Assembly: GCA_026003395.1 (NCBI GenBank)
Contig: BPHE01000001.1
Coordinates: forward strand, 60,731-124,730
Direction: 5' to 3'
Origin: Vicingaceae bacterium
Lineage (GTDB): Bacteria > Bacteroidota > Bacteroidia > Flavobacteriales_E > Vicingaceae
DNA: 64,000 bases
Part shown: piece by piece, positions 1,450-53,176 of the stretch
Position numbering within the stretch: the stretch's first letter is position 1
How the letters are laid out: the number at the start of each line of letters is the position of its first letter
The notes under the pieces: generated by a model
Databases searched by the model: none
Seen by the model: the letters and a program-made list of their open reading frames with translations, nothing else
Told to the model about the DNA's origin: nothing
Position numbers and translations under genes: made by a program

Positions 1450-1481
1450 TTTGATGAAATAAAAAATTTTGTGTTATTTTG
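1450..1481 (+). promoter_or_regulatory. Bacteroidota-type promoter of the SRP RNA gene
   Basis: TTTG at 1450-1453, a 20-base spacer and TTATTTTG at 1474-1481, one mismatch from the Bacteroidota -7 consensus TAnnTTTG. The box ends 3-5 bases before the expected 5' end of the SRP RNA, the spacing expected for the housekeeping sigma factor. Inferred from sequence only. Confidence 0.6.
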
Positions 1482-1483
1482 CG

Positions 1484-1586
1484 GCGGGCAAGTCCTTCAC
1501 GACCAGCTCCTGCCGAATCCCCCAGGTCCGGAAGGAAGCAAGGGTAGGCGGTCGTAGCGGTGCGATGAAGTCAGCTTGCCCTTTTT
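1484..1586 (+). ncRNA. ffs: Small signal recognition particle RNA (4.5S type)
   Basis: RNA scaffold of the bacterial signal recognition particle, which binds Ffh and directs nascent membrane proteins to the translocase. The terminal helix is visible: GGGCAAG at 1486-1492 pairs with CTTGCCC at 1575-1581. The conserved apical domain with its symmetric and asymmetric loops is present around 1521-1545 (CCAGGTCCGG followed by AAGGAAGCAAGGGTA). A T-run at 1581-1587 directly follows the closing helix and probably ends transcription. Length of about 100 nt fits the short form without an Alu domain. Confidence 0.95.
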
Positions 1587-1619: not shown

Positions 1620-1627
1620 TATCTTTG
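1620..1627 (+). promoter_or_regulatory. -7 box (TATCTTTG) upstream of the repeat-protein gene
   Basis: Exact match to TAnnTTTG, 23 bases before the ATG at 1651; transcription would begin near 1632. A TTTG at 1601-1604 could be the -33 element but is closer (15 bases) than the usual 19-21. Confidence 0.6.
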
Positions 1628-1650: not shown

Positions 1651-3636
1651 ATGGAATTTTTCAAGCCACTCTTTATTTTGCTTTTGTTTTCTTTTTCTTC
1701 TTTTGCCCAAGAAACATTTAAAGTAGATGGAACTATTACTGATTATTTTACAGACCAAAAAATTAATGATGTATCTATAAAAATTCTTCAAAACAATAAA
1801 GATTTTACTCAATTACAATGCAATGGGAAATACAAAGTTTCGCTCCCTTTGGGATTTGATTATCAGATAATTTACCAAAAGGCGGGTTATGTTCCGAAAA
1901 AAGTGGAAATTTTCACTTCCAACATCCCGGAAGAAAACTTCTCTGCCATCAATGATTTAAAAATCGACATGACTTTGATACCGGTTCAGCCGTATGCGGA
2001 TCTTGGATTTTTAGAAAGAGAACCGATAGGGAAAGCCATTTATGACAGAAATAAAATTAAACTGGATTTTGATTTTAATTATGCCAATTATATGGCAAAT
2101 AAAATCGAACAAGCTTTGAAAAAAGCAAAACAAAAAGAAGAAGAACGCCAAAAAGCCATTCAGGATTCTATCGCTCAAGCAAAAAAACTCGAAGAACAAC
2201 GTAAACAACAAGAACTGGCAAGACAAAAAGCCATTCAAGATTCTATCGCTCAAGTGAAAAAACTCGAAGAACAACGTAAACAACAAGAATTGGCAAGGCA
2301 AAAGGCCATTCAGGATTCTATCGCTCAAGCAAAAAAACTCGAAGAACAACGTATACAACAAGAACTGGCAAGACAAAAAGCCATTCAGGATTCCATCGCA
2401 CAGGCGAAAAAACTAGAGGAACAACGCAAACAACAAGAACTGACAAGACAAAAAGCCATTCAGGATTCCATCGCTCAGGCAAAAAAACTCGAAGAACAAC
2501 GTAAACAACAAGAATCGGCAAGACAAAAGGCCATTCAGGATTCCATCGCTCAGGCAAAAAAACTCGAGGAACAACGCAAACAACAAGAATCGGCAAGACA
2601 AAAGGCCATTCAGGATTCCATCGCTCAGGCAAAAAAACTCGAGGAACAACGTAAACAACAAGAATCGGCAAGACAAAAAGCCATTCAGGATTCCATCGCT
2701 CAGGCAAAAAAACTCGAAGAACAACGCAAACAACAAGAATCGGCAAGACAAAAAGCCATTCAGGATTCCATCGCTCAGGCAAAAAAACTCGAAGAACAAC
2801 GTAAACAACAAGAATCGGCAAGGCAAAAGGCCATTCAGGATTCCATCGCTCAGGCAAAAAAACTCGAAGAACAACGTAAACAACAAGAATCGGCAAGGCA
2901 AAAGGCCATTCAGGATTCCATCGCTCAGGCAAAAAAACTCGAAGAACAACGTAAACAACAAGAATCGGCAAGGCAAAAAGCCATTCAGGATTCCATCGCT
3001 CAGGCAAAAAAACTCGAGGAACAACGCAAACAACAAGAATCGGCAAGACAAAAGGCCATTCAGGATTCCATCGCTCAGGCAAAAAAACTCGAAGAACAAC
3101 GTAAACAACAAGAATCGGCAAGGCAAAAGGCCATTCAGGATTCCATCGCTCAGGCAAAAAAACTCGAAGAACAACGTAAACAACAAGAATCGGCAAGGCA
3201 AAAGGCCATTCAGGATTCCATCGCTCAGGCAAAAAAACTCGAAGAACAACGTAAACAACAAGAATCGGCAAGGCAAAAAGCCATTCAGGATTCCATCGCT
3301 CAGGCAAAAAAACTCGAAGAACAACGTAAACAACAAGAATCGGCAAGACAAAAAGCCATTCAGGATTCCATCGCTCAGGCAAAAAAACTCGAAGAACAAC
3401 GTAAACAACAAGAATCGGCAAGACAAAAGGCCATTCAGGATTCCATCGTCCGGGCGAAAAACGACACTTTATATAATCACAAAGATAACACCGGTAAAAA
3501 CAAGACCAATAAAAATCCCGATGAACCGAATGAAAACAAAACGGGTATCATCATTCATTCAACTCAACAAAATAACAATACAACAAAAAACAAAAACAAA
3601 AATTTACCAAAAGGAACGAAAATCAAAATAGATTAA
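1651..3636 (+). CDS. Secreted coiled-coil repeat protein with N-terminal carboxypeptidase-regulatory-like domain
   Basis: Function unknown. The 661-residue product starts with a signal peptide (about residues 1-19, ending FSSFAQ). Residues 22-110 resemble the carboxypeptidase-regulatory/CNA-B-like beta sandwich common in Bacteroidota surface proteins (VDGTITD, GYVPKKVEI). From about residue 160 the protein is a nearly perfect 25-residue repeat (KAIQDSIAQAKKLEEQRKQQ followed by ESARQ), 17 full copies plus the start of an 18th, strongly predicted to form a long charged coiled coil. The tail (about 605-661) is Lys/Asn/Thr-rich and ends GTKIKID; no sorting domain or anchor is seen. It probably extends through the periplasm or along the surface. 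Two genes follow in the same direction (next start 27 bases after the stop). The repeat copies are so alike that length must vary between strains. Confidence 0.85.
   Translation: MEFFKPLFILLLFSFSSFAQETFKVDGTITDYFTDQKINDVSIKILQNNKDFTQLQCNGKYKVSLPLGFDYQIIYQKAGYVPKKVEIFTSNIPEENFSAINDLKIDMTLIPVQPYADLGFLEREPIGKAIYDRNKIKLDFDFNYANYMANKIEQALKKAKQKEEERQKAIQDSIAQAKKLEEQRKQQELARQKAIQDSIAQVKKLEEQRKQQELARQKAIQDSIAQAKKLEEQRIQQELARQKAIQDSIAQAKKLEEQRKQQELTRQKAIQDSIAQAKKLEEQRKQQESARQKAIQDSIAQAKKLEEQRKQQESARQKAIQDSIAQAKKLEEQRKQQESARQKAIQDSIAQAKKLEEQRKQQESARQKAIQDSIAQAKKLEEQRKQQESARQKAIQDSIAQAKKLEEQRKQQESARQKAIQDSIAQAKKLEEQRKQQESARQKAIQDSIAQAKKLEEQRKQQESARQKAIQDSIAQAKKLEEQRKQQESARQKAIQDSIAQAKKLEEQRKQQESARQKAIQDSIAQAKKLEEQRKQQESARQKAIQDSIAQAKKLEEQRKQQESARQKAIQDSIAQAKKLEEQRKQQESARQKAIQDSIVRAKNDTLYNHKDNTGKNKTNKNPDEPNENKTGIIIHSTQQNNNTTKNKNKNLPKGTKIKID
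2156..3430 (+). repeat. Seventeen tandem copies of a 75-bp coding repeat
   Basis: CCATTCA recurs exactly every 75 bases from 2156 to 3431, giving 17 complete units and a partial 18th. Each unit encodes 25 residues. Copies 1-4 carry amino-acid variants (A/V, K/I, ELAR/ELTR), whereas copies 5-17 encode identical peptides and differ only at silent positions (caa/cag, cgc/cgt, aga/agg), indicating recent expansion or homogenisation of the 3' portion. Because 75 is divisible by 3, gain or loss of units keeps the gene in frame. Confidence 0.97.
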
Positions 3637-3663: not shown

Positions 3664-4536
3664 ATGAAAACCATTTATCCTTTTTTGTTTTTGTATTTAA
3701 CTTCACTCTTCGTTTCCGCCCAACAAATTTTATGGGAAAATGAAGTCATCTATGCTATTCCTTTTATTCAAAAAGACCAAAAAACAATTAAACGCCAATT
3801 AGGATATGACCTTTCTTATCAATCAAGGATAGCATTTTCCGTTAACGAAATAATCGAAATTAATGGTGGATTCGAACAGCATCTATTTCATAACCGCGTA
3901 AAAGATTTAAGTTTTGGTGAAACCTACAATGGATTTAGAAATTTAAGCAAAATCGACATAAACTATTATGGACTTCAGGCAGGATTAAAAATTTACTTAC
4001 CTTTTTCCAACGGACTCTTGCAACATTTTATACAAGCAAATTATCATACTACCTTTTTACCAAATGGCACGATGATTGATTCCGCTTTTTTCCCTTTAGG
4101 TAACGAATCGGTCAAACTAACCACCAATGTTCCGGGCAAATTCGATTTTATCGATCTATCCGCAGGAATTCAAGGAATTTTAACTTACAACCTTTCATGG
4201 ACTTTTCGTATAGGCACGACAATACCAATAGACAACCAATGGATAACTACCTCTTTGGAAAGAATAAACAACAATTCTTTCTCACAATCAAAATCACAAA
4301 TAAAGTTCACCGGTTATGGTGTTTCTTTAGGTTTGGGTTTACGCTATAAAATTATGAAATTTCATTACCCGCGTATACGTATCTCTCCTCCTGATCATAA
4401 ACCTAAGGACAAATCTCCTCAAATAGCCAATGTGGTGGATACTTCTGCAAAAATTCTTCATCAACGGCCATATGATCATCAGAAACACATGGGTCGTGAA
4501 CGATTCGATTATCAAACTGACCATCTGGGACGATAA
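3664..4536 (+). CDS. Predicted outer-membrane beta-barrel-like protein, N-terminal part of a frameshifted gene
   Basis: Unknown function. 290 residues with a clear signal peptide (1-19, ending FVSAQ) and alternating aromatic/polar strands typical of a small outer-membrane barrel (for example YGLQAGLKIYLPF, YGVSLGLGLRYKIM). After about residue 235 comes a Pro/Lys-rich linker (SPPDHKPKDKSPQ). The last ~15 residues look like out-of-frame sequence. Reading HQRPYDHQK at 4463-4489 and then switching to the +1 frame would continue as TWVVNDSIIKLTIWDD, which aligns with the C-terminal module of the next gene but one (KTIKVNDYYQIFKIWDH). A single extra base near 4488-4492 therefore probably splits one gene of about 378 codons spanning 3664-4801. 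It follows the repeat-protein gene by 27 bases. Confidence 0.7.
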   Translation: MKTIYPFLFLYLTSLFVSAQQILWENEVIYAIPFIQKDQKTIKRQLGYDLSYQSRIAFSVNEIIEINGGFEQHLFHNRVKDLSFGETYNGFRNLSKIDINYYGLQAGLKIYLPFSNGLLQHFIQANYHTTFLPNGTMIDSAFFPLGNESVKLTTNVPGKFDFIDLSAGIQGILTYNLSWTFRIGTTIPIDNQWITTSLERINNNSFSQSKSQIKFTGYGVSLGLGLRYKIMKFHYPRIRISPPDHKPKDKSPQIANVVDTSAKILHQRPYDHQKHMGRERFDYQTDHLGR

Positions 4537-4801
4537 ACGCGAGGATGGTGATGAACTGTCTATCTATCTTAATGAACAAACCATTTTAGATCATTATATT
4601 TTGGTAAAAGCCCCCATGGTTGTATATGCATATTTGAAGCCCGGCAATAATGACTTAATTCTTTATGCCCACAATTTGGGAGAAATCCCCCCGAACACTG
4701 CCGTGATACGCTTAGAAGCACCCGGTTTTCAACACAAGGTTTTAATGAAATCCGACACAGAAAGATCTATGGCTATACGCCTAATTTATAAACCCAAATG
4801 A
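4430..4801 (+). CDS. C-terminal part of the frameshifted barrel protein (WD-EDGD module)
   Basis: Open frame of 123 codons overlapping the end of the preceding frame by 107 bases. From about residue 20 it contains a module of about 90 residues with the pattern TIWDDKREDGDELSIYLN, ILDHYILV, GNNDLILYAHNLGE and PPNTAVIRL. The same module closes the next protein (KIWDHAAEDGD, ILDHYRLT, PPNTCSIEM). The frame has no signal peptide and no plausible start of its own; residues before about 19 read as linker out of frame. I therefore take it as the 3' part of the gene starting at 3664. Such modules are seen in Bacteroidota surface proteins, but I do not know a function for them. Confidence 0.55.
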   Translation: MWWILLQKFFINGHMIIRNTWVVNDSIIKLTIWDDKREDGDELSIYLNEQTILDHYILVKAPMVVYAYLKPGNNDLILYAHNLGEIPPNTAVIRLEAPGFQHKVLMKSDTERSMAIRLIYKPK

Positions 4802-5604
4802 CTATGAAAAATGTTTTATTGACTGTTTTAATACTATTGTTGACATTGGCATCTTGTAGCAAGAAACAACAAGAACTTGAGATTGAATACCGCGGATGCA
4901 AAAAAATGAAAATAAGTCAACCCAATTATGCCTTTTTACCGGATACATTTTGCAAAAACGAAGGTTATGGAGGCGCTATCCGTTTTGAGTTTCAAATTGA
5001 CAGAGGAAAGGATTGTTTCTATGCTATCTCCCTCGATGAGGTCACTTTTTATCATGCACAGGGTATCGAATACAATGTTAGATCCAACCGATCATACAAA
5101 ATTGATGACCCCCTAGTTATCATTGACAACGAAAAGGTATCTTTCGTTTTTTGCTATTGGAGCAACGATTCATCCACTATTGCAAATTTGACCAACATAG
5201 TTGTTTCATGGAACATTGTGAGTGAATACGGTCAATGGAGTAATACATTGACCGAACGTATCGATTTTCCGGGAAAACCCATTTCCACAGCACTTATGGA
5301 TATAGTGAAAACAATAAAAGTAAACGACTATTATCAAATTTTTAAAATTTGGGATCATGCTGCAGAAGATGGGGATATAGTGACAGTGCATTTCAACAAT
5401 GATAAAATTTTAGATCATTATAGATTAACCAAAAATGGGGAACAATTTGCCATAATATTACAAAAAGGCGACAATTTCCTTTCCGTACTTGCTGAAAACG
5501 AAGGAGGAAGTCCGCCCAACACCTGTTCGATTGAAATGAACAATACCGAAATAAAAATAGACGCCAAAGTCAACCAAGCCAAAACAATCAAAATTGTTTA
5601 TTGA
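4798..5604 (+). CDS. Lipoprotein of unknown function with WD-EDGD C-terminal module
   Basis: 268 residues. A type II signal peptide with lipobox LASC (Cys about residue 20) predicts a lipoprotein. The middle (25-165) is a probable beta-rich domain with Cys at about 34, 52 and others. The C-terminal ~95 residues repeat the module found at the end of the preceding gene: KIWDHAAEDGD, NDKILDHYRLT, GDNFLSVLAENEGG and PPNTCSIEM. The start ATG at 4798 overlaps the preceding TGA (ATGA); a second ATG at 4804 is equally possible. The three genes 1651-5604 look like one transcription unit for an envelope assembly of unknown role. Confidence 0.75.
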   Translation: MTMKNVLLTVLILLLTLASCSKKQQELEIEYRGCKKMKISQPNYAFLPDTFCKNEGYGGAIRFEFQIDRGKDCFYAISLDEVTFYHAQGIEYNVRSNRSYKIDDPLVIIDNEKVSFVFCYWSNDSSTIANLTNIVVSWNIVSEYGQWSNTLTERIDFPGKPISTALMDIVKTIKVNDYYQIFKIWDHAAEDGDIVTVHFNNDKILDHYRLTKNGEQFAIILQKGDNFLSVLAENEGGSPPNTCSIEMNNTEIKIDAKVNQAKTIKIVY

Positions 5605-10010: not shown

Positions 10011-10022
10011 AACATAAGCTTG

Positions 10023-10414
10023 TGGAGCCGGAGGGAGTCGAACCCTCGTCCAAACAAGGTCCCGGATTGCCCGCTACACGCTTAGCCATTGTTTGGTATT
10101 CGGTTCCGGAGACGACCAATGGCAATCTTACTCCGGACCTAGTTATCATTTGATAAGACAAATTGGGCGATAACTACCCAATTGCCTGCTACATCTCAAT
10201 GATGCCGTTTTAGAAAGATCCGTGTAGCCAAGACCTTTACAACGGCACTCGCTTGGGCTACTGTACTTCGCCCACTATGGCCTTAAAAATTAGGCAGCGA
10301 GAGCGAAAGTTTCTTCGCCAGTTATGTTTGTATGTTTGTTTTAACGAGCTAAACATACAAAGCCCGGCGTGCTGGCAATCCGAAACGGTCTTGCTGTCAA
10401 AACCGGTCGGCCCC
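10023..10414 (-). ncRNA. ssrA: Transfer-messenger RNA
   Basis: tmRNA rescues stalled ribosomes by tagging incomplete proteins. The 5' end GGGGCCGACCGGTTTTGACA (from 10414) and the 3' end with GGGTTCGACTCCCTCCGGCTCC form the tRNA-like domain; the acceptor arms GGGGCCG and CGGCTCC pair over seven positions including one G-U. The T-loop is present. The tag reading frame lies at 10319-10290 and encodes GEETFALAA then TAA, close to known Bacteroidota tags. After the discriminator A (10023) the genome reads CAA, so the CCA end is not encoded and must be added. Length about 392 nt. Confidence 0.96.
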
Positions 10415-51642: not shown

Positions 51643-53005
51643 TGCTCTTTAAATTTAACAACCTCAGGATTTCTGATCTGTCAGTTTTTCCATTTGCATT
51701 GAGAGGAAATTGGCTAATTGCATAAACTTCTATCGGTTGGAAATGCCGTGGAACAATATTCAAAAGATTCTCCTTGATTGAATTTATATACTGCGATTCA
51801 ACATTCTCAATCACAAAAGCCAAACAATCGCCTAAATTTGATCTTGTATGTTTTAATACTACAACATTAATACCCGGATAGTGCTTTCTGAACATTCCCT
51901 CCATTTCTGCAGGATCAATTCTATATCCATTCATCTTGATTTGAAAATCGATTCTACCTGTATACATCAACAAACTCTCCTCATTGAAGTAACCTGAATC
52001 ACCTGTCCGATAGGCATCTACAACACCTCCCCCTTCTGTTTGCATCTTGACAAATTTATTTTCACTCGCAGATGAATTAAGATAGCCGTAAGTTGCAACT
52101 TGTGGACCGGCGATAACGATTTCACCTTTCTCACCGTTGGCAAGAGGTTTAAGATTTTCGTCCACTATATAAATGACATTATTTTGATAAGGTCTGCCGA
52201 TACTAATAATGTTTTGGTATTCGGCAGGTTGGTTTATCTTTTCAAGATGATTGTAAGATGTAACAGTAACAGTACATTCTGTCGGACCATATTGATTGTC
52301 CATTCTTGCTGCAGGAAAAAGTTTTTTTGCTACCTGCAAATCATCGATCAAAAGAGCTTCAGAAGAGAAAACGGCATATTTGACGGAAGAAAACGCTTCA
52401 CGGTTGACAAAAGGCCTGCAAAAACGCAAGAAAGACGGCGGGAACCCCGACATAGTCACGGGATATTTCTTTAGCAACCGCAATATTTCAACAAATTTCA
52501 GATTGTAATTTTCGACAACCAATACAGGTGTCGCAGTAATCCATCCCAATAAATAATGTTGCAAAGAAAAATCGAATCCCAAATCAAACATTTGTAGAAA
52601 AAGATCGTCGTATGTAAATGAACTGCCAAAATTATTAGAAAAGTGCATCAAATAAGCCCATAAATTGGCATAAGACAAACAGGCGCCTTTGGGCAAACCT
52701 GTTGAACCGGATGTGTGCAAAACCAAAACCGGATCATAAAAATCTATATCCTCTACGGAAGGAAAAGAATATAATTTTGATGTTGAAATAGAGTGTAAAT
52801 CAATATTTACAATGCCTTCATATGTTTTTTCGGCTGTCAGGACAAGTTTGGCAGGTATGTTTGAAAGAATTAACCTATCTCTGTCATACGAATTTGTAAA
52901 TGATAAGGGAACTAATACAAAACCTCCCAAATATCCGGCCAACATAGCGGCATACGTTTCAAAATGCGGGCAGGTATTTCGATGTTGAAATAGAGTGTAA
53001 ATCAA
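51635..53005 (-). pseudogene. AMP-dependent acyl/aminoacyl ligase, C-terminal fragment of a duplicated-and-broken gene
   Basis: 456-codon frame opened by a TTG created at a duplication junction. From about residue 11 it repeats the sequence present in the N-terminal fragment (TCPHFETYAAMLAGYLGG). It then holds all ligase motifs: VLHTSGSTGLPKGACLSY (P-loop), NQYGPTECTVT, YRTGDSGYFNEE and the catalytic-Lys region LNANGKTDRSEIL. It has A-domain character (adenylation of a carboxylic acid, maybe amino acid). Collapsing one copy of the duplication would restore a complete ligase of about 509 residues with the fragment at 53009-53365. No carrier protein gene is visible beside it. Confidence 0.85.
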
Positions 53006-53176
53006 TATTTACGATGCCTCATATGTTTTTTCGGCTGTCAAGACAAGTTTGGCAGGTATGTTTGAAAGAATTAACTTATCTCTGTCAGACGAATTTGTAA
53101 ATGATAAGGGTACTAATACAAAACCTCCCAAATATCCAGCCAACATAGCGGCATACGTTTCAAAATGCGGGCAGGT
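52779..53176. repeat. Imperfect ~200-bp direct tandem duplication
   Basis: The segment starting GATGTTGAAATAGAG at 52779 recurs at 52981 (period 202). The copies (52779-52976 and 52981-53176) run to AAATGCGGGCAGGT and differ by six substitutions and one deleted T (CCTTCATA against CCTCATA). The period is not a multiple of 3, so the coding frame is broken. Confidence 0.93.

Follow-up and report, generated by a model that had tools for sequence, protein, structure and literature searches.

The open reading frame (ORF) at 1651-3636 on the plus strand of a 64,000-nucleotide stretch of a Vicingaceae bacterium (assembly GCA_026003395.1, contig BPHE01000001.1, positions 60,731 to 124,730; the whole stretch is referred to as the window) encodes a protein of 661 amino acids, in which an array of 75-bp coding repeats lies between a folded head and a short basic tail. 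At the level of sequence, comparison with relatives of this focal gene showed length change between related species, conserved ends and replacement of the repeat unit between genera. With a modest lean, we favour the view that the product is an exported, probably periplasmic envelope protein with two ends, held together by a helical spacer whose changeable length is tuned by recombination. The gene is composed of the following parts.

1651-1707, plus strand: signal peptide MEFFKPLFILLLFSFSSFA, with predicted cleavage before Q20 (read from the sequence)
1708-2076, plus strand: transthyretin/carboxypeptidase-regulatory-like head with PIGKA hairpin (AlphaFold2, fold matches and invariant residues)
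2077-2148, plus strand: first part of the helix, which runs on into the array (helix from mature residue 123 onwards, as modelled for the head)
2149-2448, plus strand: array copies 1-4, with diverged peptides (unit alignment)
2449-3423, plus strand: array copies 5-17, with identical peptides and four silent variable sites (Tandem Repeats Finder, TRF, and unit alignment)
3424-3448, plus strand: partial 18th copy (end of the TRF array and unit alignment)
3449-3633, plus strand: linker, then the conserved basic tail at the C-terminus, with PKGTKIKID as its end (tail profile and tail alignment)

TRF reported a single array at 2149-3448 with a period of 75, 17.3 copies, 95% matches, 0% indels and a score of 2285. 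Splitting by hand yielded 17 complete 75-bp units at 2149-3423, followed by eight codons of an 18th (QKAIQDSI), in agreement with the seventeen exact units of the original prediction apart from the additional partial copy. Alignment of the units also confirmed its claim that copies 5-17 differ at silent sites only and that copies 1-4 have diverged. The 25-residue peptide QKAIQDSIAQAKKLEEQRKQQESAR was encoded by every one of copies 5-17, which varied only at unit positions 6, 45, 54 and 75, all of these being silent third-position transitions. Copies 1-4 were 4-8 bases off the consensus; L replaced S23, and A11V, K19I and A24T occurred once each. Only 44 of the 225 possible single changes to the unit (about a fifth) are silent, and the chance of four out of four variable sites being silent is about 0.0015, or about 0.012 if only transitions are considered. 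Since so few of the possible changes are silent, the exclusively silent variation suggests that the units were homogenised recently and that the peptide is under purifying selection. Similarity between neighbouring units within copies 5-17 did not exceed that in shuffled order (P 0.33). The longest exact repeat in the array, 263 bp at an offset of four units (2755 versus 3055), was likewise non-significant against shuffled unit order (P 0.09). Polar growth and block duplication within copies 5-17 were rejected, as neither shuffling test was significant. The array is a homogenised block with a diverged 5′ edge and without a visible growth direction inside the block, and the repeat was found at one place in the focal genome.

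That unit number would differ among related genomes, as the original prediction implied, was supported by large changes in spacer length between species. G011 and G020, which belong to the same genus, were 94.0% identical in DNA at the head end and 95.1% at the tail end, and the array comprised about 56 residues in G011. In G020, the head contig carried at least 69 array residues and the tail contig 264, giving a minimum of 333. Array length differs about six-fold between these two draft assemblies; the array ends of the two G020 contigs had no exact overlap, and an inexact one would lower the total, never under 264 residues. Complete spacers ranged from 180 to about 795 residues across orthologs, remaining long (600-800 residues) in most lineages. 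The unit had 25 residues in the focal genome, 18 in the genus g12 (G011 and G020) and 35 in three other genera, g4, g5 and g14; a search of the family with the focal unit revealed no convincing homologous 25-residue array elsewhere, apart from one weak match. In G003 and G016 the homogeneous units were located at the 5′ side and the 3′ part was heterogeneous and colinear, indicating that growth at the 3′ side, as originally proposed, is not a rule. These comparisons between species do not bear out contingency by repeat number within a strain, an idea that the original prediction itself gave as inference.

By its sequence, the focal protein belongs to an undescribed single-copy family with conserved ends and a variable middle: a signal peptide and a transthyretin-like head come first, then the PIGKA hairpin, the helical tandem array and, last, the basic tail. 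The tail profile gave exactly one match per genome in 24 of 46 Vicingaceae genomes, representing 6 of 16 genera (in G000 with an E-value of 9.5e-15, the G000 sequence being itself a row of the profile), and, in a sample of 295 genomes from the class, zero matches outside Vicingaceae. Among the genomes sampled, the family thus appears to be confined to Vicingaceae (Flavobacteriales). Searches with the head gave matches in 51 of 60 related genomes, mostly to paralogs with tetratricopeptide repeat (TPR) arrays; true orthologs have head, array and tail in common. A TPR beside the array is an optional feature of the family that most orthologs show, with matches in L052 and L065 and TPR-like sequence in the g4, g5 and g14 orthologs; none was found in the focal protein by Pfam scan. 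The idea that some curated family covers the entire protein was dropped, NCBIfam giving no match and Pfam only weak matches to the head. Two groups of paralogs were observed. To the first belongs L050 (G000:C4, 5348-9091), of 1247 amino acids, in which a long TPR-like array comes after a related head, and similar genes of 1400-1900 amino acids are carried by many family members. The second group (L067, L068, L071 and L072) combines a related head with a short array of the 35-residue type and a tail ending KKRIVF/L; its lengths likewise vary, between 403 and 511 amino acids.

The signal peptide shows K5, a 12-residue hydrophobic core and an FA|Q end typical of Flavobacteriales, as read from the sequence, and orthologs share this layout. 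No lipobox, type IX C-terminal domain or anchor was found in the focal protein with Pfam, NCBIfam and reading of the sequence, as the earlier claim of a missing anchor had it. From a 23-row alignment, AlphaFold2 modelled the head as a beta sandwich that leads into the PIGKA hairpin and then one helix, at a mean predicted local distance difference test (pLDDT) score of 95.7. The best fold match was to a segment of SleC (Z 10.3), followed by the TTL domain of carboxypeptidase D (5aq0, Z 9.1), CnaB (Z 8.5) and the SusC NTE (9hfj, Z 8.1). The CarboxypepD_reg models PF13620 and PF13715 matched with 15.8 and 16 bits, under their gathering cut-offs of 32.3 and 32.2; together with the confident head model and the fold matches, these hits bear out the secreted protein with a carboxypeptidase-regulatory-like head that had been predicted. 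A sequence search of the PDB with the head profile gave at most marginal matches to similar folds. The predicted fold resembles transthyretin-like and CarboxypepD_reg domains (PF13620, PF13715, SusC NTE), whereas the focal head is not joined to a TonB-dependent barrel or a peptidase; being widespread, the modelled fold would tell little about function. The focal head with its PIGKA motif was 29-37% identical to relatives, and G27, G59, K83, P125-I126-G127 and Y144 were invariant in 15 sequences. The tails align roughly to the pattern F/I-x-I/V/L-K/H-S, a K-rich part and K-I/V-K-F/I; in the full-length model, the approximately 60 residues after the focal array were unstructured at low confidence, and no Pfam match was obtained there.

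When the full-length protein was modelled without an alignment, mature residues 125-587 came out as a helix, interrupted by one short break and with a pLDDT of about 70. The units are predicted to form a mainly polar helix, whose hydrophobic moment was not above that of shuffled units (P 0.14). A strong coiled-coil periodicity was therefore rejected, and the coiled coil of the original prediction was not supported. With a rise of 0.15 nm per residue in an alpha-helix, the 425 array residues would measure about 64 nm if straight. Units of 18, 25 and 35 residues correspond to about 5, 7 and 10 helical turns (3.6, 3.57 and 3.5 residues per turn); this near-whole number of turns per unit is suggestive, with three cases only.

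Similar designs have been described in other bacteria. Domain II of TolA in E. coli likewise consists of in-frame helical repeats in an envelope protein, with natural copy-number variation driven by recombination (PMC3477136). Contraction of the tolA repeats is RecA-dependent, occurs at 6.9e-5 and typically removes five units, and depending on repeat number the tolerance of bile salts changes by four orders of magnitude (PMC3477136). Unlike TolA, the focal protein has a signal peptide of the cleavable type, a head of beta-sandwich fold and a tail that is short and basic: a 12-residue hydrophobic core followed by A-Q was read in place of the uncleaved N-terminal transmembrane helix, and no counterpart of the globular domain III was seen among the residues after the array. 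TP0470 of Treponema pallidum, predicted to be periplasmic, contains 4-51 eight-residue units in an extended helix; their number varies between strains, as resolved by long reads, without a known reason (PMC9531955). It shares with the focal protein a signal sequence, the lack of a lipid anchor, a folded N-terminal part, identical short charged units modelled as an extended helix and a short C-terminal part, a similarity of design only; its units are of 8 residues, its head is a TPR domain, which the focal protein does not have, it has neither a transthyretin-like head nor a KIKF-type tail, and it belongs to a different phylum. Periscope Proteins are surface proteins with a stalk of near-identical repeats between their ends, for which length variation from intragenic recombination has been proposed (PMC8201768). 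Long, highly identical tandem repeats are present in the focal array as well, but Periscope repeats are mostly globular domains, while the focal repeats are helical and no anchor was found. By analogy, the focal family may work like these three systems, the likeness being one of design, from which homology does not follow.

The array gene is directly preceded by an RNA gene and followed by a barrel-like ORF at 3664-4536. Two features were noted upstream.

1479-1585, plus strand: signal recognition particle RNA gene directly upstream of the focal ORF (RF04183, 108 bits)
1620-1627, plus strand: TAnnTTTG element TATCTTTG, a possible Bacteroidota -7 box (weak, the motif being about as common as expected by chance)

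A conserved operon was rejected, since the barrel-like neighbour is kept beside the array gene in only 2 of 46 family genomes and the array genes of other relatives have different neighbours (WbqC-like, miaA, yajQ). An ORF at 4430-4801 overlaps the barrel-like ORF in another frame and is similar, with IWD..EDGD..ILDHY, to the C-terminal part of the lipoprotein encoded downstream; the two overlapping ORFs may be one gene split either by a frameshift or by an assembly indel. The lipoprotein-like ORF at 4798-5604 has this C-terminal module in common with the preceding ORF and showed a weak NCBIfam match, below the cut-off, to the N-terminal model of the PorU sortase. Elsewhere in the window, a tmRNA gene (10020-10414, minus strand, RF00023) and a 201-bp tandem duplication (52774-53176, two copies 96% alike) were observed.

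According to the explanation that we favour, a helical spacer free in length would join two conserved ends, the head with its beta sandwich and the short basic tail. Unequal recombination between near-identical 75-bp units, possibly of the RecA type, would gain or lose blocks of 25 residues in frame and, as each block makes about seven helical turns, the helix would remain continuous. Selection would preserve the chemistry of the helix, as suggested by changes that are silent only, yet tolerate or favour altered unit number and even unit type. The protein would be located in the periplasm, head and tail may bind different partners, and a change of length may be of benefit. Several points weigh against this explanation. 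Length variation was compared between species, with one genome per species, and both the short array of G011 and the focal unit count derive from assemblies of unstated read type. The helix, modelled alone, reached moderate confidence only, and no conserved neighbour gene of the array gene was found. A width of 20-30 nm is the usual figure for a Gram-negative periplasm, so that a straight helix of the calculated 64 nm would be too long to fit across it; the rod would have to follow the wall, fold back, pair or exit the cell. The earlier suggestion that length change alters the reach of a periplasmic or surface rod must thus be taken with care.

The last of these options leads to a stalk on the surface, in which the protein would cross the outer membrane and the spacer would project the head, its length tuning exposure. 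The excessive length of the helix, the near-identical repeats as in Periscope Proteins (PMC8201768) and the barrel-like gene directly downstream are in line with this, but a type IX C-terminal domain, lipobox or anchor was not found and the barrel gene so rarely accompanies the array gene that we regard such a stalk as decidedly unlikely. It is also rather unlikely that the repeats merely turn over neutrally, the spacer having to be no more than a soluble polar helix whose unit number drifts without function. The exchange of unit types between genera at the same place, suggesting low demands on sequence, and the wide variation in spacer length would fit neutral drift; the silent-only variation of copies 5-17, the maintenance of 600-800 residues in most lineages and the phenotypes of the TolA repeats (PMC3477136) argue against it.

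An artefact, by which the assembler set the number of units or made copies 5-17 homogeneous, would be compatible with the exact repeats of up to 263 bp and with sister assemblies that break within their arrays. Head and tail contigs both ended inside the array in G020, G003, G016, G004 and G029, and the tail contigs of G027, G028, G032 and G034 stopped there, as did that of G063, with a frame shift; G065 had a gap of Ns. With G063 left out of the count, at least 9 of 24 orthologs were broken in the array versus 4.9 expected (P 0.03 for a gene of 2.5 kb, 0.07 for 3 kb); among genomes with up to 120 contigs it was 6 of 13 versus 1.3-1.6 expected (P 0.0008-0.002). As arrays break assemblies, unit counts from short-read drafts, possibly including the focal one, are not trustworthy, and with exact repeats of 263 bp the 17 focal units imply long reads, careful resolution or an uncertain count. 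The number of rRNA copies was rejected as a guide to the assembly type, the single small-subunit gene being uninformative. However, the four silent variants were kept in mixed order and not collapsed, and relatives have independent arrays at the same place, which makes an artefact highly improbable: the focal array is real, and doubt is limited to the unit count.

A bolder version of the favoured explanation, which we consider unlikely, would see a lineage-wide envelope tether with the spacer as a fast-evolving ruler: between conserved ends, units of 18, 25 and 35 residues would have been repeatedly reinvented and re-expanded, selection would see length and not sequence, and tether length would differ among the cells of a population. 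Since draft genomes often break in such genes, length variation is under-reported. Helical spacers of variable length are known from TolA and the treponemal protein, and selection on length itself is largely an open question. For this question the family provides a natural series, in which, within one bacterial family, spacers of many lengths and of three unit designs are combined with a constant head and tail.
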